DNA of 64,000 nucleotides, from positions 6,068,999 to 6,132,998 of the forward strand of contig OU696591.1 of assembly GCA_916048095.2 (NCBI GenBank), in the 5' to 3' direction. Shown piece by piece: positions 129 to 61,933 of this stretch. Origin of the DNA: Sacculina carcini (Eukaryota > Arthropoda > Thecostraca > Sacculinidae). The translations under genes and the position numbers were made by a program. Below the pieces are notes generated by a model, which was not told the origin of the DNA, did not search any database, and saw only the letters and a list, made by a program, of their open reading frames with translations. Each line of letters begins with the position of its first letter. Position 1 is the stretch's first letter.

Positions 129-1558
129 CTGGGCTCAAGCGGAAGACATGCAGGTAAAATTGATCCTTGAAATGAAATCGGAGAGTTCATTTTAATCACA
201 GCCACATCATTTGCATAGAGGACCGGATCCCAGTTGTGATGTACACTGATTTGTGTGGCCAGGCGGAACACGGAGCTGGTTTCATGCATACTGCTGATGT
301 CATGATCGCCCACACTCAAAATCAGATGGCGACGAATATCGCTGTAACGAAAACTGACGAATCTGTCGGAAAAACGGACGTGTGCCTGTCAGATGTTGAA
401 CTAGAATTGGAAAATATCGAAAACAAGTGCTATATATTCTGTAACACCTTCATTAATTAAAGGTAGGAAAAATATTAAGATCATGTGCTTCATTTTATAC
501 AATTCCTCCATTAATTATAATTAAAATTATCATCAAAAACACGTATTTCATTTTATACAACACCGCTATTAAGTAAAATTAATAATATGATCAAAACACG
601 TTGTTCGTTTTATACAACACCTTCATTGATCAAATTTTCTGCAATATATGAAAACACGTGTTTTATTTTATACGATTCCTTAATTAATTGATTTTTAAAT
701 TGATCAAGAACATGAGGTTTATTTTATACAGCACCTACATTCACTGGAATTCAAAGCAATAGAGAAGATAAAAACTACAGTGCAACCTAATCTGGACGTT
801 GAAAAAAAGAATCTGACTCAACATCCATGGATTAGATTTATAAAAAATTATTGATGACAAATAAGAATTGAGATATGTCAGCAGTCAAAAGGTTAAAGGT
901 TAAAGGCCTTGATTGACAGCTGCTACACGGGAAGAAGTCGAACCTTATGAACACACACAGGTGTCTTCCGTGCAGCTCGCTGCCACCGCAGAACCGACCC
1001 TCTCCACGCTATGACGCCAGAAGGACGGAAGACGTATTAGAGAGGACCACCTCCCCAGAATGCATGACACAACACATGACTGATATATGGTACTATTCAC
1101 TGCTGGGTGGACAGGGGCTGTTGGATTATATAATTCACCCAATGAAATTCTGCTCCGCCGGGTTTTGAACCACGGACCTCCCGCTTTTGAGGCGGGTGTG
1201 CTACCACTACACCACGCAGTCCACGGAGAGTGCTAGTGTGCCGGTGATATCCTCGTGTGTGATCACCTGGTGACACAGTGCGCCACAGATAACACGTGCC
1301 ATTCGCTGATCAGCACTCCTGCACAGAAGAAGCGCAACTGCCGCTCGTGCAGCGAACGTCGCTTGAATATGGCTACCTGCCAGGGCCACTCGTTGACACG
1401 AGCCACACTTCCTCCGAGAATCTTCCACAGCAGCAGGTCAGACGAGATGGCCGGGTCATTGCGGCCGTTTAGTGATGAGGATGAGGACGGGGGTGACGGC
1501 CCCGAGTTACTGCTGTTCTGCTCCGCCTCGACGCCGATCACAGAAGCAGCTCGCTCCT
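129..1558 (-). CDS. Protease exons 10-11: trypsin-fold catalytic domain (partial)
   Basis: Exon 1558-1267 begins with a Ser/Pro-rich stretch and then has the activation junction WK/ILGGSV (about residue 498), NEWPWQV, FCAGVLIS, and the catalytic histidine in SVAHC (about residue 545). Exon 362-129 has HLILSVGDHDI, the catalytic aspartate in NDVAVIK (about residue 601), and ILPACLPLEP, ending at the consensus donor CCCAG/GTGAGT. The acceptor for the second exon was chosen as CGTTTTTCCGACAG at 363 because it is the one that keeps the frame. The serine exon and the substrate-pocket residues are beyond the left edge, so specificity cannot be read. Confidence 0.9.
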
Positions 1559-3536: not shown

Positions 3537-3599
<63 letters not shown>

Positions 3600-4373: not shown

Positions 4374-4413
<40 letters not shown>

Positions 4414-6318
4414 TAACACACACACATACACATAACACGAATAACTATATATAAAAATGTATACTGTAAAACTATATTTGAACGATATTTATTACGACAC
4501 CACTGACACGCTATTAGAGTGGTTGTTGTCATGGTTACCAGGCTAGTATAATGAGACACACACACACACACACACACACACACAACACGAATAACTCTTT
4601 AATAAATATTATATACTGTAAAATCTCTAATTGAACGTCATCTTTAATTAATCGTTACTTTGATGAATTATTATTGTTTGGCAATAGTTATTACTGAATG
4701 ATTCTTATAAGTGAGTATGTGATTAATTACCAGTAATAATCCTGTATATGTGTCTTTTCTTCAATAAACATGCATATTTTATCTGGTTCTTTTTTCATCC
4801 ATAAAAAGTTTGCATTAAAATTGGCGGAGGTGCCTGTTTATATATTTCACGATAAATACGCTGGTGAATTTTCCAGTTTAATAGATAATTTGTCGGTGTG
4901 TTCAGTGTTAGTTTGGTCGTGCATGTTGATGTTCTCGTGCTTACATTTGCAACACACTTCCGCTGATGATTGCTTGTTGTCAGGACTGTTAGCGACGATG
5001 CAGCGGGAATCATAGCCTCCTCCACCCATCATGCAACTCACTGCAGACTGACACACTCCGTGATTCCGACTCGAATCACTGCATATTGCACCGGAAGAGG
5101 GCGAGCGTTGCAGCACTGCAACAAAATAATTTTACTAAAAAACCATTTTTTATATTTTTTTAATAACAATTTTTTAACATATTTTTTTTAATAACGAAAT
5201 TGTTGTGACAAAGGCTAAAAAATTCACTCATACAAGATGCTAATTTTGATGAAATATTTCATATGTTGATAAACATGCGTTTAATTAATGTACTTACGTA
5301 ATTTTCTGTACAACCTAGTGAAAATACAACAGCATGTATTATAACACCACATATGGTATTCAATATATAATTTCGCTTAATCAAATAAATAAAATAAATT
5401 ATATTAGTAGAAAATATATTAAAAATTTAAAAATAAAATTTGATTAAAACTCATCGAATTACATGAATGATTTTTTTAATCTATTAATAGTTATTTATTT
5501 TAATTTAATTGTTTTAAATGTCAAAATGACAAGTTATAACCTGGTTTTGGTGTTTTGAAAAATCCGAAAATTGTTTTTTCAGTGAAATTCTCCTTCATTG
5601 AGGCCGTTTCTTCAACTTGTTCAAGCTGATGTTGCACGGATGTCATCTCCTCCTGCTGCTGCTGCGGTTCCTGTGTTGATGTTGAAGACACTGGTGACGT
5701 GGTGCTCTCCCAGAAGTCACCATTATCCTCCCCATCACCCGATACACCTTCATCCTGATAATGTGAGTTTCACTTAGCTATGCTTATTAAGATGAAGAAG
5801 ATTTTGGCGGGTGAAAAGTTGGCACAACACAAAATATGCGATCAACATAGCATAGATATATTTAATAAAATTACCTATACATTTCTTTAACCAATTTCAC
5901 ATTTTTCAAAAACACTTATATAATTTAACAGCTTTTCACGTGTTTTAGCGTATAAATATTTCTTTATAATTGACTTCTTGAAAACATATACAAGTATTTT
6001 GGTAATTTCATTGAAATACAATTCCAAAAATATTATGTCATAGTATGTGTGTATGTGTGTATATGTGTGTGTATATGTGAGTGTGTGTGTATGTATGTAT
6101 GTGTGTGTGTGTATGTATGTATGGTTGTGTGTGTTTGTGTGTATATGTGTTTGTGTGTATATGTGTTTGTGTGTATATGTGCTTGTGTGTATTTGTATGA
6201 GTGTGTGTATGTGTGCATGTATGTATATGTGTATGTTATATTCTCTCACTGTTTCTGCTTGGTCGCCAATGGAGTCCTCACTGACAAAGTTAGCAGATTT
6301 CATCCAAGAGTACGCTAC

Positions 6319-6358
<40 letters not shown>

Positions 6359-9300: not shown

Positions 9301-10271
9301 GTGAACATGAGTAGGGCAGCAGATATGATTACAAAGACCTAATGAATCGATTAATTGTAAAAACATAGAAGAACAAGACTTGAGATGAGGCGCATCAACC
9401 CAAAGGTTGAAGTCACCACAAATCACTATTCTAGAAGAAAAAATTGGAAGAAGTGTGTCTATAAGAGAAGAAAACTCATCAAGAAAAATTGAGGAAGAGA
9501 AAGAATTAAGACGGTAAATGTTGACAATACATACAGGCAGAGTAGTTTTGCCAATTACTTTACAACAGATGTATTCAAATGACTTAATAGGAATTTCTAC
9601 ACTACATAGATAGGCATTAATGATGTTAGAATTATAGACAAAAGAATCACCACCGCCAGCGCATTTAGTAGGATTAGATACATTCAAAGGGCGACAATTA
9701 TGAAAAGCTGAGTAGCCAGCAGGAAGAGAGCGGTCAAAGGAGGATATTTCAGCAACAGAGAGCCATGACTCAATAATCAGAAAAATATCATACTTAGGAA
9801 GGATGGACGCAAAAAGTGATATTTTAGACCTAATAGACCTGAAATTCAAGAAAGCACATTTTAATAAACCAATTGCATTATTAGATTTAGAACGAGAAAT
9901 AATAGAAAATGAGTCAGAGAGAGAAGAAAGACACTTATCAGCGGATAAGTGTCTTTCTGTCTGTCGATAAGTACACATACACACACATACACACACACAC
10001 ATGCATGCAATTACATATTGTTAGACAGTGTGATAACTTTCAATTTTTTACTTATGAAATACAAAAAGTTACTCATATTATGATTAATGTATTAATTTTG
10101 AGTAAAGATATAAATAACAAATTAAATTATGCGCAAGAATAGACTGTGTGTCTGTGTTTGTGTGTGTGTGTGTGTTTGTGTGTGTGGATAGTGATAATAT
10201 TCATAGTCATCGTATATATCAGGCATTATAACGGATTTTGCTGTCGACGTCCAGGTTGAGTGACCTTTACC

Positions 10272-10342
<71 letters not shown>

Positions 10343-10871: not shown

Positions 10872-10941
<70 letters not shown>

Positions 10942-11372: not shown

Positions 11373-11413
<41 letters not shown>

Positions 11414-19100: not shown

Positions 19101-23137
<4,037 letters not shown>

Positions 23138-23174: not shown

Positions 23175-23223
23175 ACCGATTCGCCCTCACTAAACGGCAG
23201 TCCACAATTCACAAGCAAAAATC

Positions 23224-24498: not shown

Positions 24499-24531
<33 letters not shown>

Positions 24532-36947: not shown

Positions 36948-37520
36948 CTTACAATACACACATACAAACATACACACATGAATAAACATTGAACAAACAT
37001 ACACACACACACACAAACATATACATATACGATACATACATAACAACAAACATATACATATATAAACATATACAAACATACATATTTATACATATATTTG
37101 AACTCTGACGTACATTAAATATAGACATTCGTGTATAAGAAAACAAGATGTAAGATAGATGTGAGATAAGAAAACAAGTGATTATCAATTGTGTTAGAGA
37201 AAGAGAGAGAGATAGAGAGAGAAAGAGAAAACAGATACAAAGAATACAGAGATACAGAGAAAGAGAGAGAAAGAGAGAGAGTTTGTGAGATAGTTACCAG
37301 GGTTCTATGAGATTTCAGTAGATTAGCCACCACTTCATCAATAACTCTATCACTCAATTGTGTGGCCACTGCTAGTTGAGAAAGAGAGAAAGAGAGAAAG
37401 AGAGAAAGAGAAAGAGTTTGTGAGATATTTACCAGGGTTCTATGAGATTTCAGTAGATTAGCCACCACTTCATCAATAACTCTATCACTCAATTGTGTGG
37501 CCACAGCTAGTTGAGAAAGA

Positions 37521-37554
<34 letters not shown>

Positions 37555-37667
37555 AAGAGAGAGTTTGTGAGATAGTTACCAGGGTTCTATGAGATTTCAG
37601 TAGATTAGCCACCACTTCATCAATAACTCTATCACTCAATTGTGTGGCCACAGCTAGTTGAGAAAGA

Positions 37668-37714
<47 letters not shown>

Positions 37715-40700
37715 ATAGTTTGTGAGATAGTTACCAGTGTTCTATGAGATTTCAGTAGATTAGCCACTACTTCATCAATAACTCTATCACTCAATTGTGT
37801 GGCCACTGCTAGTTGAAGCTGAGAAAGCTGAGCGGCCAGCTGATGACCAGCTGACTGTACAATCAGCTGACGTGTGCTATCACGGCTCTGTCTAGCTCGC
37901 TCCATACAGGCACTGTGTATCTGTCGCTGTACTGACTCCGCCAGCACGTGGGGACATTGTGTGCCCGCCTCCGATAATATACGATCAACCACCGTCTAAC
38001 AAACAGTCATAATAATATTATTATTAATAATACCGTATATTTCGGCGTATAAGACGACCGTTAGATAAGACGAGGTACAAAATTAGAGCAAATTTTTATG
38101 CATCTAACATATATATCGGTTGTATAAGACGACTGCTAAATGACGAAACCATGTTTGTTTGGCCAAGGCTAGTGTGCCTAGAGTGCTAAGCTGTAGTAGC
38201 CAATCCTGCCAAGAGATGGCGCCCGCAGTCCATTCCATGCGTTGGCGTCGCCATGGGAAAGAAGATGGAGAAAGAAGGAGCATGATATAAGACAAATGCC
38301 AAATGTATATGACAAATGTATACGATATATGACAAATGTAATAATAAATGATATTTCCGTTGTTGTTTTATATTAGCGAAAGAAAGACACATAGCACAAA
38401 AACATACATAAATCAAAACAATATAACAAACTACGCAGTGGAAAACAAATAATATCAACCATATCTTTTTAATGTCATAAGCGCTTTATATTTTTCGAAG
38501 AGTATATATGTGGATATATGTGTCGGTGTGTATGTATGTGTATGTATATGTATGTGTGTGTGTCTGTATGTATGCGTGTGTGTATATGTGTATGTACCTG
38601 TGTGTCGGTGTGTGTTTATGTATGTATGTGTATGTCGGTGTGTGTGTGTATGTATGCGTGTGTGTATATGTGTATGTATGTATGTGTGTGTGGGTGTATG
38701 TTGCAAGTTACCTCAGTGTGTTGCATGATGACTGAGTGTATATCATCAACCACCGTGGAGAGAATTTTGTCCACAACAGCAGTACCTGCATTATTGGAGT
38801 TGGCGGCATCTACACCAGCCTCACTACACTCTTGTTCCATGACTATCGAATGAAAACGAGCCAACAACTGAACAAACAAACACACGCACACACACGCACA
38901 CACACGCACACACACACACACACACATACACACACACCGTAACACACATCGAAATTTGTTTAGAACTATCAAGATTAGAAGAAAAAATCCAGGAAGATCA
39001 CAAGCAGCAAAATCACGTGCACAAAATCTTGCAGAAAATAATATTTGGTCTCGTGTTTGTAGCGTCAGGGCACTTCCAATAAAACACACTTAATTGTATT
39101 TATTAAATAATTGTTTGATAGTAATAATAAAGAGCCGATATTCAAGTAACAATGATTTCAGAGAGAGAGAGAGAGAGTGAGAGAGAGAGAGATACCTTCT
39201 TGCAAAAGCTATGTTCACAGTTGAGTTTGAACTGAGAAGAATCATTATTTGTTTGTTTCTTATTGTCGTCAATGGCAGCAATATTTGCCGACTTATTCGA
39301 CTGGGTCGATTTGGCCGCTGGTTCTGCCTGATCTTCCTGCGTCTTGATGTCTGCGTTCCTGCCTGATGCACGCGCTGATCTAGTGCTTGATTTAGAAGAC
39401 TTGATCTTGCTAGTTTTTCTGGAATCAGCACAGCAGGATTGGCCTTCACTGGGATCTGTTGCTGTCTTCTTGTGGCATCTCTGTGACTTCCCCGCACAAG
39501 ACGAAGAACCAACTATTGCTCGAATACCACTGATCACATGGTCTTTATCATGGTTCTGTATCGAAGCGGAACTTGTCGATGCGTGATTATCAGACACATC
39601 AGTCGCCACAGATAAGAATTTGTTCTCCACCACGGAGGATTCGCCACCTCTATCACCACTCTTCTTTCCAACATCTGTACTTCCACCTTGAACACCTGGT
39701 TGTTCATCAACTTCTTCCAGATTGATTGATGTATTTTGTCGTGAACTTTTTCTCCTCACTTCAACCGCCAATCCACTCTTTTTCGTCCGAGTTTTGCCTG
39801 TTTTACGAGTGACCTTACTGTGACAGACAACAACATTCAATTCGCTCTGCAATCCCTCTTTCTTAGCATCATTATCTGCCAGGGAATCATCCATGTTGCA
39901 ATCAATCAGAATTGCAGCCACAAAAAACAAAAGATCCACGAGATATCACGCACGAGAGAAAAACACTTTCTTAACTGTCACACTGTCGTTCTCGATATTC
40001 ATAGCGTGGTGAAAATGTGTGAACAATAGCGAGGAGGTGCTATTAGCACATAAATCACGAGAAACCGTGTTACGAAAACAAACACATGCAGATGACAAAA
40101 ACACACTCACACACTGACACTCACACAAGACGCACGCACACACTCACTCAGAAGATGAGCTGCTAGTTGCAAAACCACACTGTGATGGGCACTTGGCCAA
40201 CACAGGTAAATATAAACTAGATTTAGCCCATACACATACACACACACACGCGCATACATACACATACATATTGACCAGAGCGCCAGCCAATATTCACTAC
40301 ATGACCATTAAGAAGAGTGGATAAATTCACAAACACACACACACAATAATAAAAATTATCAATGAAAAAAATTTATGTTAACTAAAACTATCTTATGTTA
40401 TCTTATCTATGTAAGTATATATGTATCTGTTATTCCATCTTATCTATGTAATGTAATGTAATGTAAAAATGTAAATGTAGTGTAACATAATAAACAAATT
40501 ATGTTAACTCATCTTAAATTAAATTAAGTAGCAAGTGTTTTCTTAAATGAAATATAATATTAGTTTAAAATAAGGAGAATTTTAGATTTAATAAAGATAA
40601 TTAGTGTTTTATGTTGTGTTAGTCTTAACTCTATTAGTTAGACCAGTTTTCTCTGCTCTTCAGCTAGTTTATTCAACAATACTGAAAAACATGGACATTT

Positions 40701-40940
40701 TTTACCTCGTTTCAACACAAGTCGATTTCAAGACTTGAGCTTGTGTATACGAGTGTGTGTGTGTGCGTGTGTCATATTTGATATATAGATATAGAGACAA
40801 ACACACAACCACAGAGAGAGATATAGAGAGAGAGATAAAGAAAGAGATAAAGAGAGAGATAGAGATAAAGAGAGAGAGATAAAGAGAGAGATAGAGATAA
40901 AGAGAGATAGATAGAGATAAAGAGAGAGAGATAGAGATAA

Positions 40941-40975
<35 letters not shown>

Positions 40976-41629
40976 AAGACACATCACCTGCTTAGAACAC
41001 ACACAGAGAGAGAGAGAGTGAGAAAGAGAGAGAGAGTGTGTGTGTACCTGTTTACAACGTTCGGCATCTTCACACACGGCTTCTGCATGTTGTATTAGCT
41101 GTTGTTGTTCTGATTGTGACGTCACTGATCCGTCACATACTGACGTCATAGACTCAGATCTCGATGTGCCTGTTTCTTCTGGCTCGCTGGAGGATGGAGG
41201 ATTACACCCCGCCTCACAGGGGGTGGTCACAGGGGCGACGGTGGGTGTGGTGGTAGTGGTGGTGGTAGTGGGGTAATTGTTGAGTTGGGTGTGACAGCGT
41301 ATTTGTGACACGAGACGATCTATCATTTGCTGTGTACTCGACAATAAAAAACCCTACCAATACACACACACACACATATACACTGAATATACACGTATAA
41401 TACGAGATCACAGACACACATTTAACTAGAGTGGTATTTTCAACGTGGACACACAATTTCATCTTCAAAATAATATTCTACTCTAACAATATGTGCCAAT
41501 TATTTTAATATTTACAAGCCATTAATTTCCGAGTGTGAAAATTGATAATTCACGAGCAGTAATTCACGAGTATCTTTCACTTACTAGAATTAATATCGCC
41601 GTTTCATATTTATTGGTTTTCATTCTGTA

Positions 41630-41687
<58 letters not shown>

Positions 41688-42564
41688 AATTCAAGTGAAT
41701 GGAAGTGCGTTGAGCGTGAAATCACGTGATATTTCATTAAATCAATCACAATATGTAATTAATCCCAAATCAACGAATATTCACCGTTGCCATGGTAACA
41801 CACAACAGAATTTGAATTCTAATAATGTTATTGTTGATGTTGTTGACGTTATGAATTTGAGCTATACGAACGTATTTTCAACAACAAAAAATTACACTTA
41901 GTACATGATTTCACATTGAAGTTGTTAATGGAATACTTTAAATTTAATAATTGTAATTTTTAAGTTGATAATTTTCGTTTTTGAAGTAGATATGTCAATG
42001 TGTGTCAATGTATCAGTGTGTATATGAGACCTGTTGCAGTTTGAAGGCTTGTCGCGTGGGGGGTCGGTGTTGTTGTGTGTTACGATGCAACAATTGTTCA
42101 ATACGACGCCACACCACCTCCACACGATCACTAACGCCAGCCCGAACCCCGGCAGCAGCCAAATCACTCAACGGAGTCGCGATGTGTGATAACGTACAAT
42201 TACTGCGCAAAAACATACGTGTTTATATTTATATATATTTACTATTAACTAAATTTACTATTATTACTATTACTATTATTTTCTAAATTTACTATTACTA
42301 TTATTTACTATTACCATTACTATATATATTTACTATTAACAACTATGAATATAATAAATGCACACAAATAAATTATATTAGATTTAATATTAAAAATAGA
42401 CAGGGTGTATTCTTGGCGGTGACCTTTGTAGACTGTATGCGATATCGGACAGTCCCTGTACAGCTATGTTGTTGTGGTCGAGGGTGATGTGACGTAGTCG
42501 TGAATTAATCTGCAGTGCCTTGGCTAGCAGCCGCGCCCCCGTGTCACCCATCATATTACCACTA

Positions 42565-42597
<33 letters not shown>

Positions 42598-42958
42598 CGA
42601 CACAGTGTTAGATGGAAAATCGGCAAGCTATACTTTTTCACACACAAAAAAAAAAATATATATTTTATTTGTTTTTTTTATTATATAAAAATGAGTATAT
42701 TTATTATTGATTTATTATTTTGTTTTCTAATTCTCTTTATTCCTAGAAGAATTACTTTGCTGAAGTATCATTCTCTCTGTACATCTTTTGGTTAGCTTCC
42801 AGTACACATGGGGGGTCATCACACAGGGTGGTAATAGTGCACTTGCACTCTTCCCCCATGCTACTGGATTTGCCTGTAATTAATAATAATAATATTAATT
42901 GGAAGACGGGATATTTTTCACCAGTTTTTCGATTTCTTCCTGCTTAATACAACTCGCT

Positions 42959-43000
<42 letters not shown>

Positions 43001-44674
43001 TACACACACATATATTGCACTGTAATATAAGTAACTCCAGTTAAGTAATTGAGTAATATTGGTTCAGTTTAATATTACGTGTTTCCATTTTCCACTCTTA
43101 TTGCTCTTCCCTTTCTCTCTCCCTCTCTTTCTTAATCACTGTGTGTATGTTTGTTGATGATCAAGATGCATGGATATTGCAGTTGCATGTGTAACTTATA
43201 TATAACGTTCAAAACACTTTCTACCCGTTTCAAATCTTGTTTATTAACTCAAATAATAATAATAATAATAACATGTTGTCTATATATATTTACCCTCTTT
43301 CCATGCTCCCATGCTTTTTTATGATGGTGTATGTATGTGTATGTGTGTGTGTGTCAGTGTGTATGTTACCTGATATCAATGAATTGAAGACAATTGTTAC
43401 TGCCCAGTGCGTTGAGGAATGGATACAATTCGCTCTTCAAGCGGGAATCACTGATATCCAGTGATTCCAACGTGCATTCCTCATCCTAACACAGTACATT
43501 ACATTACATTACACACACACACACACAAACACATACACACACACACACACATACACACATACATATAAATTTGATCTCACTTTTCATACATTATGTCTCG
43601 AATAAATGCGCTAAATACTTGTATATTATATAAAATTAAACACTCATATATTTATTCACAAACACATTAATAAGCATACATACACACACACATACATTCA
43701 TAGCTACACTTGAATGAACACCAAACTATTTTTCAATAAACGTCCAATGATAATTTGAATAGTTTTACGATTACAAGTATAAGTATAAAGTATATTATAA
43801 GGAAATAATAATGCCAATCAATGTGTATACTTTGATTATAATGCAATTCTACTGATGTGTGTCTATTGGTTTGAATACCACTGAATTTGTTACCGAGTTT
43901 GACCTCAATAGTCTCGCATATACAAGCCAGTTAAAAATCAGTGAAAAACGAAATCACGTGCCTAAGCACACAAGGGCACTCTCGGATCATATTAAATTAT
44001 TATCGCGTGTTATTGATGTGTGTGTGTGTGTGTGTGTGTTTGAAAGCCACTGGAAAACGGAGCCTATTTGACCTGCACCAGTTGAACGAGCGCATCGACC
44101 ACGTGACGCATATGTTTCGGCTTCAGTTGGGTCATATTGTGAGACACATTGAGCACACGCACTGAACGATTACGATTCACCGCCGCCAACAACCCGGCCA
44201 ACTCCTGCTCGAAACCTACACACACACACACATACACACACACACACACATATAACAGACTTTATACATATTCATTATTTTCAAAGACAAAAATAAATTC
44301 TACAAATTTTGACATAAATAAATGTGCAAGTAAAAAGTCAATGATTTTCAACAAGGACAATAACTTGACAACGTTATAATAATAATAATAATTATATTAC
44401 GCACTAAGAATTAATTTTAAATGTTTAATAAAAAATTGTTTATTTATATATTTCAATTTTCACGCAATAATAATAAGAATAATAATAGTTATATTATTAT
44501 AATTCACCGTTGTCGGCAATGTTGAGTGTGTGGAGACAACGCACGCCGTGCACACAAGACTCCATGACATGAGCTCCTGTGGAGGCCAGGTTATTAGCGC
44601 TGATGTCCAGTGTGACGTCACACAATGACTCATTGCAAGCCAGTCCCAGCAACAAGTGTCTGCGTGTTGATATC

Positions 44675-44709
<35 letters not shown>

Positions 44710-45250
44710 ACAACAACAATGACCGTAACAGACAGAGATAAAAATAATAAGACAGGAATGGAAATATATGTTTATAATGTTTTAATCTTATGTTTTAGAT
44801 CAGTGGTTCTTAACCTGTGTGTGTGGGGAATTTCCTGTATGGTGGGGAATGGAAGAGTTGTCAAGTGGGAAGCTAAAGGTCGCACAGAACAGGACAACTA
44901 TGTGTGTTTTTATCAATTCAAATTCGTTTATTTTTGTTTCTCATGACTTCTAATGACATTTACTTTGATGTAACAAGTGAATTTATTGAATTTATCAGCG
45001 CTGTGTTGTGTGGAAAATGAAGAGATGACTCATTAAGAAGAAGAATTGAGGAATCAGTGAGAGAAAAAAGGTTGAGAACCACTGATTCAGAATGATTTTG
45101 TACATTTTGGTCATTTTCAAAGTATTTTACACACAGATACAAAAGATAAACATATAGAGTATTTTATCGAAATTACTCCAATGAGAAGCAGAAATCACAC
45201 ATGTAAACATAATGGAAGAAGCAGAGTGTGTGTGTGTGTGAACGAATATG

Positions 45251-45292
<42 letters not shown>

Positions 45293-45985
45293 AGAGAGAT
45301 AGAGAGGGGAGCAAGAAACAAGACATTAACGAAAAAAAGTTGAAAATGACGCTACAATAAAGAAAACAATAACAACAACAATAATAATATTATTATTAGA
45401 ATGGATATGAGCTGGTGTTTGTTGAAAGATACTAACTTGAGGGCTTCTTGTGTGATTTTGCACGAGACGAGCTTGATATGTTTGAGCGCGGCCGCACTGG
45501 TGAAGAACTGTTTGAAGGCGGCAGGAAGCTCGCGAGATTTCTTACTAGAAAATGAATTGTACGACAGATCCAGCTCTACCAGTTGACTCAAACAACCACG
45601 CAACAACGCTCCAAATATCTGCCACACACACACAAACACACATAAATACTAACATACAACTAAACAAACACACACACAGGGAGAAACACACACACAAATA
45701 CAAATACACACGCACACACAAATACATACAAATACAAAACACACACAAATACACAAATACACACAAACACACGCACATATAGACAAACACACACACACAC
45801 ATATAGACACACACACACACACACACACACAAATACACACACAAATACACAGATACAAATACTAACATACAAATACTAACATACAAATACACACACACAC
45901 ACACACAAATACTAACACACAAATACACACACAAATACACACACAAATACACACACACATACAAATACACACAGACAGTCAGACA

Positions 45986-46032
<47 letters not shown>

Positions 46033-48032
46033 AGAGAGGGAGAAACACACCAGATCCAGAGTGAGTTCACAGTTGCTCAGTGTGAGCGTGCGTAATGAGC
46101 AGGATTTAGCGAGCAGCTGAGTGAGCGCAGTACATTCGTCTCGTAACGTATTGCCCGACAGATCGAGATGTGTCAGAGGTGCGCCACGATTCGCCGCAGC
46201 CGACAGTGCCTGACACAATTGTGACGCACCTCGCGCACCAACACCACAGTGAGCCACACATAAGCGCTGCAGTGATGAACCGCTACTGTGACGCTGCCAT
46301 TTGGTCACAGCACTCGCCAGGTGACATACACCTGACACACACAAACATACATACACAGTGTGTATGTGTACATACAGTGTGTACAGTGTGTATACATACA
46401 CAGTGTTGTAAATATGTGTACACGTTTTTTATATAAATATATTTGCTTGAATGTCAAAAAATACATACATACACACATACATACACAAAAACTCACACAT
46501 ATATACACATATATGCAAATACATACATACACATATATACACACATACATACACACAAACACAAACACATACACTTGACACACACCCACGCAAACATACA
46601 TACACCAGACACACACATACATACATACACCAACACACATACAAACACATACACACAAACACAACAGTGTCAACGGTACGATTTCGTGCCGCTGGCTATT
46701 GAGACCACCGGTGTGATGGGGGCATCCCTGGACGACTTCGTCAAGCTCCTGGGCGGGAGAATAAGTGAGCGTTCAGGGGAGCCGCGAGAGACGGCCTGGC
46801 TTCGACAACGAATAAGCCTGGCCGTCATTCATGGCAACGCCGCCTCCATTGTTTTATAGTAGTATTGTCAATATGTGTACGCGTTTGTAAATATATTTGT
46901 TTGTGTAAAAAAACATAAAAAAACACACACACGCACACTTGACAAACACACACACACATACAAACATACATACACATATATACATAAACATACACACGCA
47001 CATACACATATATGCATAAGCATACATACATATATACATAAACATACATGCACACACACACATACACACATATAAGTTGAATATATTAACTTGTCAATAA
47101 CTACCTAAATGCTACTGTATTGTAGTGTATTTGATTAATGTATTAATGATTGTGTATGCGTATGTATGTATGTGTGTGTATATATATAATATCGTAATAA
47201 TACTAGCATTTGGATTTAAATAAACGTCATCTAATGAAAAATCAATCAAAATCATTGATTTAAACGAAGACTGGAAAAATATGCATATTAATTGTTATTA
47301 AATATATTTAGTTATACACAAAAACTGTTTACATTGAGAAAATATATGTAGGCTTAACAACAATTATAACACAGTTAGATTAATTAACAAAAACATAACA
47401 ACACAATTCCATCAAAGTCTCTTTTGTGTGAATGAAATATTATACCAAATCTCGTGCAATTGTTTCATGCAAGACCGCTCCTATTGAATAACATTGAAAA
47501 ATCAATATGATGAGTGAACAACGACGCCTTATAAGGTAACACTCACTGACTGACTGACACACACACACACACTGGAATTGTGGACCAATATTAGGTATAC
47601 AGTTACCGCAGCCACAGCGTGGTTACAAGAAGAAAATAAAAAAACACAAAATATTGCAATCACTAATGGTGTTTTCACGTTATAAACACTTAAACACAAA
47701 CACACACACTTACACACACACAATGTATACAACGCCCGAACAATACTGTAATATATACTCGCACAAAAAAACTCATAAACGTATGCGTGTGAAAGAATAT
47801 ATACACCGCCTAGTGCATGTATGCATTGTATGCACGTGTGTGTGTGTATGTGTGTGTGTGTGTGTGTGTGTCGTGGTATGAGTCATTCACTCGTTTCCTG
47901 TCCATTTCCCAAATCCTCACACTGACACACACACACACACACACATGATTTACGTAGGTGTATGTGCATGCGTGCGTGTTTGTATGTTCGTATGTATCCA
48001 GATATATCCACACACACACACACTGACACATA

Positions 48033-48065
<33 letters not shown>

Positions 48066-49634
48066 TACGCGACCGAAAATCAAAATGTGTGAATTTGAGT
48101 GAGTGAAAAATAAGCAACAGAAGAGTGTCAAATATGAAGATTATGCAAAACGGTCATCCGCGAAATTTCCCACAATATAGGAAAACTGTCTAGAAACTAG
48201 TGTGGAATGTATGTGCAAGCGTGTGTGTGATAGATAGAAATATATAGTATTAATAATACCTTATTTGTCATATTTATATGAGCAATAAACAGTGTCACTT
48301 CATCTCATCCTGGGGACTAGATCTGTGTGAGAAATGGAAGAGTTGCCAAGTAAGAAGCTAAAGGTCGGACAGAACAGGACAACTATGTGTGTGTTTTTAT
48401 CTATTCAAATTCGTTTATTTTTGTTTCTTATAACCTCTAATGACATTAACTTTGATGTAACAACTGAATTTATTGAATTTATCAGCGCTGTGTTGTGTGG
48501 AAAATGAAGAAGAGATGGCTCATTAATAAGAAGAAGTGGGGAATCAGTGAGAGAAAGAAGGTTGAGAAACACTGATTTAGATCGTATGTTAAACATTGAC
48601 ATGACAAATATCCGAGTTCACATTATCAATGGAGTGCGAGGTGCATTGTGCAACATGACACGTGATTTAGTCAACACACAAATCATGCGACTGTTGTTGG
48701 AAATACAAGTCGCACATTCCGGCTGAGAAAGTAGTGTAGTATGGAGGAATTGTAGTGGCGAAAAAACCATTTTACGAACAAGCACAGTACAAATATTTCA
48801 CCATGACCATTCATTTCACCATCAATTCCAGGCAAAACAACAGCATGACAGATTTCCTCAAACTCGAATAATTTATTTACAAACCACCACAAACACATAC
48901 ACACACACACACCGTGATTCAGGCGTATATGTTGAGGAGTGGGGAGTTACAGGCTTAAGATCAGCTCGGAATCACATGACTGCTCAAAAAAATCACCCTC
49001 ACCTATCCCATCACCAAAACCACTCAACTCATCGCCCACAAAATATCCCTACACTAAGCATACACAGCTACCAATACACACAGAAACTGGAAACACTGGC
49101 GACGAAACTTGCTGCGAAATTGACGGGCAGGACCTATGAGGAACGACTACAAGCTCTGAACCTAACTAGTCTGGAGGACAGAAGAAAGCGGGGCGACTCG
49201 ATACACATATTTAAGTATATTAAAGATATGACTACTCCAGTAATTACAGGATTTGATAAGCAGATGAATGGAAGAGAACACAAGTATAAATTAAGGAAAA
49301 CCCGCTGCAAAAATGATATAAAGAAGTACAGCTTCCCATACAGAGCTATAGATAGTTGGAATAAACTACCCAAGGATATTGTCGAAAGTGAAAAAATATC
49401 AGAGTTTAAAAGTAAAACTGATAGGTTGAGAGACAGGTCAGCTCGAGCTTAAGCTCAAATCCTGTAGAACAACTCGGTGAGTACACACACACACACACTG
49501 ACACACACACATTACATTACATTAAGACATATATATCGCGCTTTTCACCCGAGGGTCTCAAAAGCGCTCACACACACACACACTCAAGCACAAGAGTCAT
49601 ACACATACACAATCACGAACACACACACTCACCT

Positions 49635-49665
<31 letters not shown>

Positions 49666-50432
49666 AAACAGACAAGTATATATACGCACAAACACAAACA
49701 TAAACTCACGTTTACATACTCAAAAACACAAAAATACACACACACACACACATACACATACATATTGAATAAGATAGCAAAGCCGACATACAGCACAGAA
49801 GACAACAAAACATACAACACATTAAGACAACACAACAGGCATACAACGACATACACTCAGATTGACAAATCACAACACAATAGACACACAAATAAAAACC
49901 AGAAAACACAACATATCAGACACACAAAGACATACACTCAAACAAATACACAGAGAACACAACACAACAGACACACAAACACAGATAACTGAGCTCAACA
50001 CAACAACACACATACAGCATACAATGGAGAAATACATACAGCATACATACACACACACACACAGAGACGAATAAAACCTGGTTAATCCCGACGGATTAGT
50101 ATAAATATTTACACCACCAATACCAGCACACACACATGTGTGTGTGTGTGTGTGCTGGTGTTATTACTGATTACTGAGAAGGAATGCAATGTATGACTCA
50201 TTGAATGTGACCGTGCGTGTTAGTGTTAGTCAGCGAGCGAGTGAGTAAGTGAGTGAGAGACATAAAATAAAGAGAAAGAGAGTAGGAGAAAGAAAGAAAG
50301 AGAAAGATAGAGGGAATGATAGCGAGAAAATAATAAGTTATCTTATAATTATTAACAATTCTAAATATAATATATATATATTAGTTAAAAAAATCAATAT
50401 TTATCTCTAGTCTACCAATATCCCATCCTATT

Positions 50433-50497
<65 letters not shown>

Positions 50498-50627
50498 GTT
50501 ATAAACACGCCATACACAGACGAGCCGAAAAGACAAACAACAATAAATATACCCTGAGAGACATAGCAATAAGTCAGGCTATTTTTGCCCACATTTTCAC
50601 CGAAAATCTTCATTTAAATATGACATC

Positions 50628-50670
<43 letters not shown>

Positions 50671-52791
50671 TGTGTTAGTGTGTAGACTGACCCTTATCTT
50701 CGATGTTGTTGTGTGATAGGTCGATAGAGTTCAGTACTGAATTTGTGTTGGACAACACAGCACTACACAACCTCTGTACAATCTCACTGTATTAACACAC
50801 ACATATACATATATAAAATAAAATAAAATAAACAAAAAATCAGATTTGTGTGTAAAATTATTGCAGCATTAAATTTCATAGCATTGTTATAATGACAGTT
50901 TAACGAGGTTTTGACATATACATACACACACACACACATATATGACATAGAAATTCATAAATATATATGTAAAATATATACAAATATAGAAAATTCAGTT
51001 TATACACACAAACAGACAGACATATAAATGGTTTAGACTAGACAAATGATTGTACACGCCCTAATATAATGTCTTGTTAACATAAACACACACAAACACA
51101 CACACACAACGCTTGCAAACTAACTAATGTGTGTGTATGTGTGTAAGTTAGTGTTTATTTGTCCGTGTGTATGTGTGTCAGTGTGTCAGTGTATTGAAAG
51201 CCACCGCAATATACAAGAGTGTAAATATGAGACTTATATCACTCATTCACTCTTTCTCACACAATCACTCTCTCTTTCTCTTTCTCCTGCAATCAAACTT
51301 GGCTTTTATGACAGTTAATTGCATATCCTCTACAAAAAAGACAAATTATTTGTGTGTGTGTGTATATATGTGTGTATGTGTATGTACTCACCTATTTGTT
51401 TACTTATATCCTATCTTCTTTAAAAATTCCCACTATTATATTCATTCATATATAGTATTATATTCTATATATTCTTTATAGTATTATATTCTCAGTACCA
51501 TAAACAATGTATGTTCCAATTTTCCCGCACGCTGTTAGATTCTACCGATACTAGATTCTACGATCACCCCCAAATAACTGATTCCAGACATCAACACACC
51601 TTTATATGTATAGAAAACTATACTTCTTAACAGTGTGTGTCAGTTAGTGTCATTATGTGTCAGTATGTCAGTGTGTATCAGTGTGTATCAATGTGTGTAT
51701 CAGTGTGTATCAGTGTGTGTCATTATGTATCAGTGTGTGTATCAGTATGTATCAGTGTGTATCAGTGTGTGTCAATGTGTGTATCAGTGTGTGTATCAGT
51801 GTGTGTATCAGTGTGTGTCAGTGTGTGTCAGTGTGTGTTAGTGAGTGTCAGTTAGTGTCAGTGTGTGTTAGTGAGTGTGTGTGTCAGTGTGTGTGTCAGT
51901 GTGTGTCAGTGTGTATCAGTGTGTGTCAGTGTGTGTCAGTGTGTGTCAGTTAGTGTCAGTGTGTGTTAGTGAGTGTGTGTGTCAGTGTGTGTCAATGTGT
52001 GTCAGTGTGTGTGTCAGTGTGTGTATCAGTGTATCAGTGTGTGTCAGTGTGTGTCAGTATGTGTCAGTGTGTCAGTGTGTATCAGTATGTGTCAGTATGT
52101 ATCAGTGTGTGTCAGTTAGTGTCATTATGTGTCAGTTAGTGTCAGTGTGTGTCAGTATGCATCAGTATGTGTCAGTGTGTTAGTATGTGTCATTATGTGT
52201 CAGTGTGTTAGTATGTGTCAGTGTGTTAGTATGTGTCAGTGTGTGTTAGTATGTGTCAGTGTGTGCCAGTGTGTGCCAGTGTGTGTCAGTGTGTGTCAGT
52301 GTGTGTCAGTGTGTGTCAGTGTGTATCAGTATGTGTCAGTGTGTATCAGTTAGTGTCAGTTAGTGTCAGTGTGTGTCAGTATGTACCTTTTGAGAGCTGC
52401 ATTATCGAGATGCAAATGTTGCAAACTGACAGATTGTGCTAGCACGTGCAGAATTTGTTCGAGGGCGTCGCCATGTAGTCTCATATGAGAGGCGCGTAGT
52501 GAAGTAAACCACGTGTTATGTTCCAGTGCAGATATTATAGGTACCATGTCCCTGTTACATACACATACACACATAATTACATATACACACAAATACACAA
52601 AGATACATAGACAAGAATTACAGGCAAATAAAGAACTACAGATACACACACACACATAATTACACACACAAAGATACATAGACAAGAATTACAGACAAAT
52701 AAAGAATTACATAAACACACATACAAAATTACACACACACACAAAATTACACATAGATATATAGGCAAAAATACGTACACACACATACACG

Positions 52792-52823
<32 letters not shown>

Positions 52824-54288
52824 GTACATACAAACAGGCTACATATTGAGCAGAAAATACAAGACTACCCAAATAAACACTCACACACACCACAAACTTA
52901 ACTTAACCACACAAAAAAACAACCAAAACTAATATTAAAATTTATCCAACTATTTCCAGCATCAATGAACGCTTCCAATGAGAATTGGAAAAAAAACAAA
53001 AAAACAAACTATCTCACTTGGAGTCGAGATGTTCAAAATCTCGCAGGTTCAGTTCGCGACAATCGTGAGAAGCGTATATCGTGTCCACATCCTGTGATAA
53101 ATTGACACAATAATGGAATAACTCACCATATAGACAATTGTGTGTACGTGTGTGTGTGCGTGTGTTTGTATGTGTGTGTGTAACACCAACACATCGTCAC
53201 GAATAATATTGATAATAATATTAATTATATATGTTATTTTGAATTATACAGTCTGGTTTTCCGGTGATATTTCTACTGAGAAAGTAATTAGAGCCCGAAG
53301 CGACTTTACAAACAGTCGTGAAATTAAAAGTAAGTGTTGAATAGTGCCCTGGGGCTAAAATCAGTTTCTTACTGTTTCTCACTGATTAAAAAAACATTTT
53401 CTGACAAGGCCACAAAAAACTGTTCTCACACAAAATAATAATAAACACACATTTATATTGTGGTTTATACAGTTACATACTTGTTAATAATACTTATTAA
53501 TAAGTATATTATTACTAACCCAGGCTACTTCATCACAAATAATAATAACAATCATAATAATATTTATGATCATTATTAATAATATTCATTATTACTGACC
53601 CAGGCTACTTCATCACAAATAATAATAATAATAATATGTATGATTATTATTAATAATATTTATTCTCACTGACCCAGGCGACTTTATCACAAATAATAAT
53701 AACAATCATAATAATATTTATGATCATTATTAATAATATTAATTGTCACTGACCCAGGCTACTTCGTCACGACATGGAAGCGAGTGGAAGTCACACATGC
53801 ACACGTACTGGGCTGAGAAGCCCCCACAAGCCCCCGGGTCTCTCGCTTCTATTACACGACAAACCTCGTACAACTTGTTAATACGATGAGCAGGTACCAC
53901 GTCCAACCTACGTACTACGTGACTGACAACACACACACACATGTATATATATACAGGTACACACACACATGTACATATATACAGGTACAAACACACACAC
54001 ACATATATACAGGTACACACACACACATACATATATACAGGTACACACACACACACACACACATATATACAGGTACACACACACAGGTACATACATATAT
54101 ACAGATATATACAAATACATTAACACACACACACACACACACACACAGGTACACATACAGATATACAAATACATTAACACACACACACATACACATAAAT
54201 GTATACACATATAGACAAAGATACACACACATACAAACACATATACACAGACTTATACAAGCACAATACAATATATACAGACACATAT

Positions 54289-54322
<34 letters not shown>

Positions 54323-54380
54323 TTCACTGTGTATTTCAACATATACAGGTTTAAAGATGACAAAAACCACACATATTGTT

Positions 54381-54441
<61 letters not shown>

Positions 54442-57400
54442 GAGAGTGGGGCTTACTTGAGCGGTACAGAGGGGAAGATATTTTTGATGGAAACGCCCAG
54501 GTTGATAATCATGGCGTCAATTTCATTGTGCCGCTCATCAAACACACCGAAACAATACCGCTTACCCTCGTTCAATAACACCACAAACTACACCCATACA
54601 CACACACACATACATGATTACCATGGTAGAATAACTATTATTACCATGGTAAAATCACTGATTACCAATAACTTATTACATTATCATGGTATAATTACTG
54701 TTATGAAACAACAATAATTACCATGGTACAATAACCATAATTACCATGGTAAAATAACTATTATTACCATGGAAAAATAACTATTATTACCATGGTAGAA
54801 TAACCATAATTACCAATAACTTATTACATTAGCATGGTATAATTATTACTATAAAACAACAATAATTACCATGGTAAAAGTGTTATTAATATTAATACTA
54901 TTGTAAGTCATTCTTATGATATAATTATTACTATAAAATATTAATTACAATGACACAACCGTTATTACCATGATATAATAATGATTACCATGGTACACTT
55001 GGCAATAATCAGGTACTGTAATAACTATCAGAATACAATCATTGTTACCATGGTACAGTCATAATTACCATGGCATAATCAGAATTACCATGTTAAAATC
55101 ATATTTACTACACATTATGAAATTGTATAATATTTCAATATAAGCAATACTAAAACTAGGTGCTAATATTTGATCAAACATATTTGATTTGATTTTAAAA
55201 CACAATACCAAAACGAGTTGGTGAAAAAAGATTGGACACAATCCAATCAGACAATCCACTCACCTGATTGGGATTTTTACTCTCAATTGCCTGTATGTTC
55301 AGATAGTGAAAGTGGTGGTCCAACTGTGTATACACACACAAATACCAATACACAGTAAAATAGAGGAGAGAGAACACAAATGCGGGACTCATAAATGAAA
55401 ATAAATATTAATTATATTTTCATATTTAAATAAGCATTTATCTACAAGAATCTACAAGAATAGGCACGTTTGTGGAAGTATGGGCGCAGTGTGACATTAT
55501 GGAGTGTTATCGGATTGATTGTTTATTGTTATTTATTTATTATTTACTTTTCCGACTCTTTTTCTCTCTGTACATCTTTTGGTTAGCTTCCAGTACACAT
55601 GGGGGGTCACCGCACAGGGTGGTAATAGTGCACTTGCACTCTTCCCCCATGCTACTGGATTTACATGTAATAAATAATAATAATTTGTATGATATTTATA
55701 TGATATTTGTAAATATTATTATGATAATAATAATAATTTGTATGTATGTATGTTAGTATCTATGCTAGATAGTATGGGGTTTTAAGGTCGGGTATAAGTT
55801 CCCTTTGTTGTCATTACGGCTCAAAATTGTTATCACCTTCCACCACCAGATGGCGCGCACAACCTTTGAAAATTTGAAAATGCGTTTTTCTACAGCAGTA
55901 TATAGTAGTGTTGTATGAGGCCACATATTCCACGTTGGAGTGTTGTTTGTGACACATACACGCATTCACTACACAACTAAATATTATAGTTATTATATTA
56001 AAATGCAGCACAAATCCACATCAAACATATAGCTCATCTGATGTGTGACAACTATGTTATATACACATAAATAGTTGACAATTTAGACGTATACGATTTA
56101 CACAAATGAAAACACAAATGTACAGCTAGGCTAGTCAAAAATTGTGTGTCGTCAGTGACTTGAGACATATTAGTAACCCAAAAGCATACACACATACATA
56201 CGTATAAACGTGATACGTATCAACGTCAATGCATAATATACCCACAATGGACATGTGGCATGTGAATCAAGCTGCAATCGTAAATGCAATAAGTAAAATA
56301 TGCACACACAATTCCTGGAAATTGCACCACAAAACCACATACACCAACACACCCACACACACATAGGAATACCGAGAAATGACGAGAAAATTCAAACAAG
56401 TGAATACGTTTGGTGTTCAGGTGGAAAAGAACACAACAAACGTCTTGATAATTGAATTTACTGAAAACAGAAGAGGCCTGCTTACGAAGCGCGAGAAGTC
56501 ACTTAAATATACTGCTTTGAAATTAATATGCACAAACAAATCGAGAAGATAAAGAAACTGGAACATTGTGATTTTATAGGCTAGATCAGTAGTTCTTAAC
56601 CTGTGTGTGGGAAATTCCCATGTCTGGTGGGGAATGGAAGAGTTGCCAAGTGGGAAGCTAAAGGTCGGACAGAACAGGACAACTATGTGTGTTTATATCA
56701 ATTAAAATTCGTTTATTTCTGTTTCTAATGACCTCTAATGACATATACTTTGATGTAACAAGTGAATTTATTGAATTTATCAGCGCTGTGTTGTGTGGAA
56801 AATGAAGAAGAGATTGGGCTCATTAAGAAGAAGTGGGGAATCAGTGTGAGAAAATAAAGGTTGAGAACAACTTAGGATAAATAAGTCGAGCATGTTACAA
56901 ATCATACATCACTCACCCGAGTGGGAACTTTGGCTGTCAGGATGAACAAGCGACAAGCTGAAAAAGCCTGCCAACATGCAAATATAATGCGTAAATCACG
57001 TGCGTGTGAATAATGCCACTTCTCTCCCACACACACACACACAAATTACCCTACGAATTTCTCACGAATATTCAGCACACAATTACCATAAATAAAAGAT
57101 ATGGAATATTTTCAAGCTTAAAAAATTACTTTACATTATACTATATCGTTTTATATTTAAATCTAAACAAAATCCATAATATTCACACCTCTCTTTCTGT
57201 CTGTATTAGGGGAAGAACATTCTACCGCTTGCAAACGCCAGTGATATTCAGTTGACGTGTCATACGCATGAAGATGTTGAAGAGAGAAAGAGAGAAAGAG
57301 AGAGAGAGAGAGAGAGAGGAAGGATGCTCACCAGGACCCGGTTCTCGAACTTGTCGGTCTTAATCTCCAACCGTACCATACACTTCATCGTTACCTTGAC

Positions 57401-57702
57401 GTTGCTACCAAGACATGTCTTCACACTCTCTACATCACACACACACACACACACACACACACATAAATACACAAGAATCAACCAAGTAGACGCTCGTGTA
57501 TATATATGTGTGTGTTTTTTCCCAATTTTCTATTGAGAAAAACACAGAAAACACCAATAAGTTGTTGTTATTGAGATAATTTGTCTAGAAATGAGCCTGT
57601 TGTATCATATATCATATCATATATCATATCATTTGGTATGTATAATAATCATACCACATTTGGTATGTATACATATCATACACAGCTTGCACAAAAAACC
57701 CG

Positions 57703-57770
<68 letters not shown>

Positions 57771-59794: not shown

Positions 59795-61933
59795 ATGTCC
59801 GGTCGCTCTTCCCATACTTCTGAGCCGTTCGACTCGTCTGAAGAGGTTGACAGGTAGATCTGCTCACAAGCCAGGGCTCTGAGTTACATTGCTCATTAGT
59901 GCTATGGTTTTTGGTGCTATAATCAACTGCGCTTTTTGTTTATTCAATATATAATTAAATATATCGCTGTCAGTCATGAGTAATATATTGTAATAAATAA
60001 TAAATAAGTAATAAATTGCTGATTGTAATGTGGAATTCGTTCTCTCTTCTTCGTCTGCGATTGACATCATGCTGTTTGTTACAAATGAAGCAGTTTCAGT
60101 GCCTGTGCTTCTAAACGCTTTAATTATCCACTTCAATTAAAGTGCTGTGTTTGCTGATTGTGTGAACGCTAAAGATGCGTGTGTATGTGTGTGTGTGCGT
60201 GAAGTGTGGATGAGCTGGACGGCTCTGACGTTGACGCCGACTATCAGCGCGCGTGTGACATCAATCTGCTAGACTACTCGGTGCCGAGTCCGCTTGGAGC
60301 CAGCGACAGGACGTTGGATCGCGTGGGAGTTCACGAAGATGATGAAGACGATGTGATGCAGGATCCAGCGACTGGCGAGGGAGGTATCCGTCTGTCGGAA
60401 CATGTGGATCTTCAGCAGCCGCTGTCGGTACTGCGGAGACTGCTGGAGCGGCGGGTGGGCACCAGTTTGACGGGCTGCCAGTTTTGGCTGCAAGGAGTTC
60501 AGCAACTTCAGCCCCAACAGACCCTGGCCGAACAGTGTATTGAAGGAGAAGGAGTGGTGCAGGTGAATGTGGAACTCTCCTCTGACAGAATCAACATCAT
60601 CGACGTGTTGAAGCCAAGCGATGACTTCCTGGCCACTGACAATGCGGACGTTCAAGATATCGATGCAGAACGAGGTGAAATCAACGCAGCAGAAGGATTC
60701 GGTTTTCAGCGTCCGTCTCGTGTTCTGGAGGAGAATAGCGCAGAAAATGGCGCTGATCCGTCCTACATACTCGGCATGAACATGGGTCATGTGCAGACGT
60801 TCAACAACGAGTATCTCGACGAAGACATGGACTCAGATGACGACGGAGACGAGAATGACTTTGTCCAAGTGGAGGACATCACCACTGCGAACGATGACGA
60901 CCAGCAGCATGATGAAGAGGTGGATCTTGTGAGAGCTGCGGCGGCGGCAGCCTCATTTCACAAACCTCGGCCATCAACATGTCGCTCGCGCAAACGAGCC
61001 GTCACTCGCAGCAGCCACTCGGTGCCCGCGTTTTCACACGCACCACTGTCGTCGGCGTTCACTCCCCGTCCTTCCCTGCGTGTGGTTCAACCTCGTCCAC
61101 GACCGAGCCTCTCAACAACAACAACGGCGGCTTCACCCGCCGCCTGCTCGGCGCGCTCCCCGAGTGTCGAGTCCAAGATGGTGACGCGTTGGGCGTGGTC
61201 TCCCAAGTTCCGACAGCTTCAGATGTTGCACGACGTGCCGTCCGACCCGACATCATGGACGCGCGCGCACGTGGCCGTCTGGCTGGACTGGGCCGAAGAG
61301 CAGTTTGGACAGGCGCAAATCGTGCGCGCCAGCTTCGAGCGCATGATCGGTGCCGATTTGTGCAGCATCAGTCGCGATCGCTTTCTCCAACTGTGTCCTG
61401 TCGATGCTGACGACCTGTTCTGGACCCATCTGGAGCTGTTGCGCAAGTGCAAGTTTGTGGCCACCGTACAGAGGGACCACGTGGTCACGCAGGTGAAGAC
61501 CAACAAGCGGTGCAAGGAGAAGTTCAACGTGGAACATCTGGCCGACCCCAGTGCCGCCGGGCATATTCAGTTGTGGCAGTTTCTGCTCGAGCTGCTGACC
61601 GACAAGTCACGCACTGATGTCATCCACTGGATCGGCGCCGAGGGAGAGTTCAAGTTCGCCGACCCGGACAAGGTTGCTCAGCTGTGGGGCAAGCGCAAAA
61701 ACAAGCCCAACATGAACTATGAAAAGCTGAGTCGTGCGCTACGCTATTATTACGACAGCGACATGCTTCAGAAGGTGGTAGGCAAGCGCTTCGTCTACAA
61801 ATTCATCTGCGACTTGCGCGCCGTACTCGGCTACAGTCCAGAAGAACTGTCACACTTGGTCGCTCAGGCCGATGCACGCGATGCAAATGACAGACACAGT
61901 AGAACTCATCGACGCTTGAAGCGCATGCGATAA
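59795..61933 (+). CDS. GABPA: GABP-alpha / Ets97D: ETS transcription factor with OST, PNT and ETS domains
   Basis: Exon 1 is 59795-59853 (ATG preceded by an in-frame TGA; donor ACAG/GTAGAT) and exon 2 is 60205-61933, after a (TG)n acceptor ending GTGCGTGAAG. Phase 2 joins give 595 residues. An N-terminal ubiquitin-like OST domain (~83-159) has [17 protein letters not shown] and [13 protein letters not shown] long acidic and then Ser/Pro-rich region follows, then a PNT/SAM domain (~345-434: [34 protein letters not shown]). The ETS DNA-binding domain (~474-556) has [25 protein letters not shown] and the two DNA-contacting arginines in that helix. GABP-alpha binds GGAA sites with GABP-beta and controls nuclear genes for mitochondria and basic cell growth. 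Nearly the whole protein is in one exon. Confidence 0.96.

Follow-up and report, generated by a model that had tools for sequence, protein, structure and literature searches.

The window, by which we mean the whole stretch of 64,000 nucleotides analysed here, is part of an assembly of 264 Mb in 43 contigs. It holds a CARMIL gene on the reverse strand, a GABPA gene on the forward strand and a gene for a trypsin-type protease. The placed exons of CARMIL (37734..57429, reverse strand) are supported by tblastn hits, a continuous reading frame and PDB matches. The 16 placed exons, when joined, have a translation that is open throughout, and two of them match PDB structures of LRRC16A/CARMIL1. Placement is incomplete at both ends of the gene, and the PH-domain exons between 56913 and 53914 are missing. 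GABPA is identified by three Pfam domains (Ets, GABP-alpha and SAM_PNT) and the protease likewise by Pfam. Together with the muscle-type myosins sampled outside the window, these genes point to an animal as the source of the DNA.

Repeat tracts at the splice sites of the window

We counted a splice site as carrying a TG (or CA) tract when runs of the repeat, each at least 6 nt long, add up to at least 8 nt; for acceptors, the last 50 nt before the AG were considered. In CARMIL, 11 of the 16 placed acceptors have a TG tract and one has a CA tract. Read from the sequence of the reverse strand, the TG tracts stand before the exons at 57429 (57436..57463), 53914 (53929..53940), 52551 (an interrupted tract, 52552..52601), 50786 (a short tract, 50787..50836), 46331 (46332..46381), 45618 (45623..45634), 44215 (44218..44249), 43485 (43511..43526), 42561 (42565..42590), 41353 (41362..41375) and 38867 (38872..38937). 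On the same strand, 6 of 15 CARMIL donors are followed by CA: CA-rich stretches follow the exons ending at 52387 (52327..52386), 42031 (41971..42030) and 38712 (38650..38711), and CA tracts those ending at 50692 (50632..50691), 44073 (44017..44039) and 43370 (43342..43354). Across 15 introns, one of which spans the missing exons and one of which has a donor off by 2 nt, TG repeats cover 27.6% of the last 50 nt, 18.3% of the next 50 nt and 6-13% of the bins out to 400 nt. In the same set, CA repeats cover 18.4% of the first 50 nt past the donors and 5-8% of the following bins to 350 nt.

The GABPA exon at 60205 also follows a TG tract (60186..60197, forward strand), while the two protease acceptors that we placed (exons at 1558 and 362) have none. 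A sequence-only reading of the window had reported TG tracts in CARMIL and GABPA, as we find, and also at three protease acceptors, which the two placed sites do not bear out. Its overall count of 24 among 43 introns was not reproduced; our placements comprise 16 CARMIL acceptors, two of the protease and one of GABPA.

Acceptor tracts in ten genes

To the CARMIL gene of the window we added genes from elsewhere in the assembly by locating the exons of myosin heads (PF00063) and of CCT chaperonins (PF00118) genome-wide, which gave nine regions. Ten genes on 9 contigs, split evenly between the two strands, make up the sample: CARMIL, one CCT chaperonin and eight myosins. They contribute 55 complete introns, with 75 acceptors and 73 donors in all. 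SNF2 genes, also located, lie outside the sample. Profile matches give PF00063 and PF00118; myosin class names and CCT5 were assigned by eye. All splice sites come from one genome and are inferred from homology and reading frame, partly by hand. Exons were predicted with the homology hits as hints. The finder weighs coding content and, at donors, a matrix; an acceptor is scored by nothing except its AG and the bases at -3 and +1. Counted sites are homology-anchored, and predicted exons lacking homology support were left out. Examples of the short or unsupported predictions removed in this way are the 11-nt and 2268 exons of L032, a 7-nt exon in L030, two exons of low complexity in L031, 3295 and 6394 in L036, the beginning of exon 1 in L029 and, in L033, the 5602 exon together with the first four predicted. 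Intron pairs that span missing exons or lie between alternative exons were removed as well. Sites placed or corrected by hand are, in CARMIL, acceptors 42561, 42202, 41353 and 38867 and donors 41048 and 38712; elsewhere, they are L031 donor 5378, L032 donor 3497, L034 acceptor 3677, L036 donor 7596 and the CCT donor after MPK. The donor dinucleotide is GT in 72 of 73 cases and GC in one. AG is present at all 75 acceptors (required by the finder, hence partly by construction), and 98% of them have C or T at -3.

The TG tracts recur throughout this sample. Within the last 50 nt, 43 of the 75 acceptors carry TG and 2 carry CA, compared with 79 and 33, respectively, of 536 windows from intron interiors. 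Acceptors have TG roughly four times as often as interiors do (odds ratio 7.8, p = 1e-14), and TG exceeds CA at the acceptors of all ten genes. Resampling by gene, with eight of the ten genes being myosins both here and in the counts, gives a 95% bootstrap interval of 44-67% for the fraction of acceptors with TG. Coverage falls off outward from the AG in steps of 50 nt, from 27.7% to 12.4, 6.7, 5.1 and 6.0%. The acceptor half of the sequence-only observation is therefore real: TG tracts are linked in position to the 3' splice site and sense-oriented, and in these genes their frequency equals neither that of CA at acceptors nor that of TG in interiors, the two equalities that the earlier reading had named as decisive against it. 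A sense-strand (GU)n stretch near the 3' splice site is a trait that these 43 acceptors share with (AC)m-(GU)n introns.

Intron interiors themselves lean to TG on the sense strand (the 79 against 33 windows above), unlike a 264-kb block of the genome, in which the strands are balanced (419 TG and 430 CA of 4879 windows). Because the interiors lean in this direction too, part of the TG signal at acceptors is a general sense-strand bias.

A check that uses no gene models is available from the whole genome. Directly after (TG)6, the ratio of YAG to YAA is 0.95 (5566:5836), whereas the mirrored pattern before (TG)6 gives 0.49 (4027:8288). The two sides of (CA)6 are alike (25337:38534 and 34349:52154, both 0.66), and the background ratio in the 264-kb block is 0.60. 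Within that block the counts are small and the trend is the opposite, with 12:28 after (TG)4 and 55:121 after (CA)4, both below background. The genome-wide asymmetry is consistent with acceptors lying at the ends of TG tracts, although it falls short of proof.

What do these acceptors have in place of a usual 3' signal? In animals, the polypyrimidine tract to which U2AF2 binds is generally regarded as a core element of the 3' splice site, and the place where U2AF2 normally binds is where the TG or keto (G/T) tract stands here. Between -20 and -5 the acceptors contain 47% T, 33% G, 10% C and 11% A (interiors: T.35, G.19, C.17, A.28). TG stands in the pyrimidine tract's place, as had been proposed. 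Keto content over these positions is.79 as against.55 in interiors (p = 1e-22), and the longest G/T run is twice as long (13.9 against 6.5). Pyrimidine content over all 75 acceptors is slightly higher than in interiors (.562 against.524, p =.03), but the longest pyrimidine run is shorter (3.5 against 4.5, p = 9e-6), and runs of at least 8 occur at 3 of 75 acceptors against 60 of 728 interior stretches. Where TG repeats are absent (32 acceptors), the sequence still leans to keto bases (.695 against.547, p = 3e-6); pyrimidine content there exceeds that of interiors modestly, though more clearly than over all acceptors (.578, p =.009), and the longest pyrimidine run averages 3.9. The pentamers UUGUU, UGUUG and GUUGU are enriched 3-4 fold at -75 to -15. 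The zone free of AG before the acceptor has a median length of 71 nt with TG and 39 nt without, compared with interior AG-AG gaps of 11 nt. We found no enrichment of a branch-point motif at the sampled introns. As a group, the 75 sampled acceptors lack the polypyrimidine tract of a U2-type 3' splice site, a general feature that the sequence-only reading missed. Most introns of the sampled genes end instead in T/G stretches, and these, placed at the acceptor, oriented along the sense strand, low in C and A and scarce in pyrimidine runs, suggest that the splicing machinery is given a different end signal.

It could be argued that TG is tolerated at acceptors but not used: microsatellites would expand across this repeat-rich genome, TG would do no harm near acceptors whereas repeats of CA or with AG in them would be purged, and splicing would use other signals. 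The CA/TG repeat load of the 264-Mb assembly is enormous, the sense-strand excess of TG extends to interiors, and CA is indeed rare at acceptors. Tracts also appear to come and go. The intron before a conserved G-K of the myosin motor, with positions matched by eye, has a TG tract in three of six paralogues and none in the other three. The intron itself seems to be old and its tract young, in keeping with slippage having produced such tracts repeatedly from U/G-rich sequence. However, tolerance alone does not produce a fourfold excess of TG at acceptors, and the acceptors that have no TG repeat are keto-rich as well, with no pyrimidine runs left for the job. We regard tolerance as an unlikely account of the tracts.

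Donor CA tracts and the pairing of intron ends

The sequence-only reading had further proposed that (CA)n at the donor pairs with (TG)n at the acceptor and brings the splice sites together. This would resemble the (AC)m-(GU)n introns described in zebrafish, where splicing would proceed without U2AF2. Some of the counts agree with this proposal. CA follows 10 of 73 donors compared with 33 of 536 interior windows (odds ratio 2.4, p =.027); TG follows 7 of 73. Strict runs would allow a CA:TG stem of at least 8 bp (donor CA and acceptor TG each at least 8 nt) in 8 of 54 introns, and the reverse arrangement occurs in none of the 54, CA being rare at acceptors anyway. Acceptor ends are also better duplex partners for donor ends than interiors are (-33.6 against -27.3 kcal/mol in 36 introns, p =.018, computed before the correction of one CCT intron).

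Closer comparison does not favour pairing. In the nine genes other than CARMIL, CA follows 4 of 58 donors and TG 6 of 58. Nine of 55 introns have donor CA, and TG is found at the acceptor of 8 of these 9 and of 29 of the 46 others (p = 0.24). The 8 introns capable of a stem compare with 6.2 expected under independence, and the rank correlation between donor CA and acceptor TG is negative (-0.21 with dinucleotides, p = 0.14; -0.08 with tetramers). Duplexes computed by RNAduplex between the first and last 100 nt of each intron are no more stable for an intron's own ends than for mismatched ends (-33.1 against -33.2 kcal/mol, 54 introns, p = 0.51), and in CARMIL alone the own ends pair more weakly than permuted ones (-27.2 against -30.6, 14 introns, p =.83). 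Since mismatched acceptor ends pair equally well, the gain over interiors reflects acceptor composition. AC-GU bridging is not supported as a general mechanism and seems to us quite improbable as the explanation of the tracts, although a minority of introns may be bridged by CA/TG pairing. Given that donor CA is found at 6 of 15 sites in CARMIL against 4 of 58 elsewhere, and that the pairing tests are negative, the coincidence of CA and TG is mostly peculiar to CARMIL, a single repeat-rich gene, and comes in addition to an acceptor rule that is real. Thus the earlier observation holds for TG at acceptors and not for donor CA as a general feature, and its interpretation holds as far as the sense orientation of the tracts and their tie to the 3' splice site, but not as to pairing as the general mechanism.

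Candidate readers and related systems

The reading that we favour, and consider reasonably probable, is that a U/G (keto) tract, often (UG)n, replaces the polypyrimidine tract and is probably read by a protein, with PUF60 as the leading candidate. Between branch point and AG, the splicing machinery would then recognise a U/G tract, very often a plain (UG)n microsatellite. Its position and composition suggest that the tract is functional, and the negative pairing tests argue for a protein as its reader in preference to the donor end. The repeats probably arise by slippage within the U/G-rich tract and would be kept since they serve equally well.

Which proteins might read such a tract? It is not that the usual reader has been lost, because two copies of U2AF2 are encoded. 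Both lack introns and share 73% identity over 386 residues. The one in L021 aligns to human U2AF65 chains over RRM1-RRM2 and the UHM. A PUF60 gene in L024 scores above the family cut-off and aligns to human PUF60 structures, again over RRM1-RRM2 and the UHM. A second PUF60-like locus scores 410 bits, below the cut-off of 444, and lies within an open frame of 1685 residues. Passages of PMC6093180 and PMC7969005 report that human PUF60 has high affinity for UG-rich motifs and is competed better by poly(GU), and that the human exons it activates are preceded by UG-rich tracts; the authors asked there whether PUF60 could serve the GU introns of zebrafish. Two features of a PUF60-dependent 3' splice site, the UG-rich tract upstream of the acceptor and an encoded PUF60, are both present here. 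By analogy with the human work, PUF60, which is related to U2AF2, might be the main reader, perhaps beside U2AF2. A broader version, in which the general 3' signal of the whole lineage has switched to poly(UG) or keto sequence, with PUF60 in place of U2AF2 as main reader and the microsatellite as a core signal genome-wide, is offered tentatively, and we think it rather doubtful.

Proteins other than PUF60 could bind UG repeats, and the tracts might be regulatory sites for TDP-43 or CELF in alternative splicing, outside the core signal. Three loci match the TDP-43 N-terminal domain, and L023 holds an intronless CELF-like gene (identified as CELF by eye). A precedent, according to PMC12171016, is the UG-rich sequence upstream of CFTR exon 9, which with TDP-43 leads to skipping of the exon. 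However, the tracts found here precede conserved motor-domain and chaperonin exons that are needed in the mature mRNA, and with over half of the acceptors affected they are too common for a special site; a regulatory role is very improbable as their main explanation. Hardly credible is an artefact of placement, in which exon edges were drawn to the ends of TG tracts by the finder or by hand: the non-coding model does know TG repeats as non-coding and several sites were set by hand, but the finder's acceptor score covers AG, -3 and +1 alone, CA repeats are equally non-coding and yet rare at acceptors, the placed exons yield continuous, conserved proteins, and the genome-wide YAG asymmetry is independent of gene models.

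In the titles and abstract openings listed by our searches of open-licence literature, we found no report of UG-type acceptors prevailing in any invertebrate. If the favoured reading of a protein-read U/G tract is true, the polypyrimidine part of the splicing code could be rewritten even while U2AF2 is encoded, and the species would be a natural system for separating the functions of PUF60 and U2AF2. Microsatellites would have a direct role in ordinary splicing, and such genomes may defeat gene finders trained on pyrimidine tracts.

Three known systems resemble the acceptors described here. The (AC)m-(GU)n introns of zebrafish are said to have been described by Lin et al. in Genome Research in 2016, and the tract before CFTR exon 9 reportedly includes a (TG)m repeat. 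The zebrafish class, cited in passages of PMC6093180 (as about 10% of introns) and of PMC9198270, resembles the present introns in its sense-strand (GU)n stretch ahead of the 3' splice site and, for some of them, in (AC)n after the donor. The differences are that here the tract stands at over half of the sampled acceptors, most introns have no donor partner, pairing is no better between an intron's own ends than between mismatched ones, and acceptors that have no repeat are U/G-rich too. In CFTR, as described in PMC12171016, a UG repeat likewise stands just before the acceptor and affects splicing; there it favours skipping via TDP-43, whereas the tracts here precede conserved exons. The exons activated by human PUF60, as presented in PMC6093180 and PMC7969005, are likewise preceded by a U/G-rich tract upstream of the acceptor, which replaces a U/C tract or lies beside it; such tracts mark a subset of exons in human and are the prevailing form in the genes sampled here.

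Sense-strand TG bias within introns

The interiors of introns in the 10 sampled genes (CARMIL, eight myosins and one CCT chaperonin) carry a general excess of TG on the sense strand, with TG runs in 79 of 536 windows scored and CA runs in 33 of 536. Unlike these interiors, the 264-kb block is balanced overall (TG, 419/4879 windows; CA, 430/4879).

Genes of candidate tract-binding factors

Two U2AF2 genes, both intronless and 73% identical, adjoin each other in divergent orientation in the assembly (G000:C26:1032223-1036658). A second PUF60-like locus (G000:C16:7533077-7534285) lies within an open frame of 1685 residues and scores 410 bits, which falls under the family cut-off of 444 bits. The N-terminal domain of TDP-43 is found at three loci (G000:C29:895365-895583 and C26:5886003-5886991), two of which are divergent and less than 1 kb apart.

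Repeats, tandem domains and duplicated exons

Within the window, a stretch of CARMIL exon is present in approximately three tandem copies separated by CT-rich spacers (37248-37995), and the CARMIL region also contains a minisatellite of approximately 71 copies of a 14-bp unit (26675-27669). Between the protease and CARMIL, an open frame of 1002 residues on the minus strand (7015-10020) resembles, on visual inspection, the endonuclease and reverse transcriptase of a LINE-type element.

Elsewhere in the assembly, among the 130 of 714 candidates that were scored, protein-kinase domains occur in tandem on contigs C20, C24, C31, C15 and C35, each series contained in one open frame of roughly 1,500-2,900 residues; the domains are clustered, with a spacing of 1,386 nt between hits on C20, C24 and C31. 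In L031, a region containing one of the sampled genes, a donor sits within a short tandem array of GTACTG-like units (about 5378-5402), which provides several possible donors. Two myosin genes (G000:C23:545260-547380 and C36:4878646-4879747) each contain the same exon twice, at profile positions of about 378-436, and these adjacent copies are probably alternative exons.
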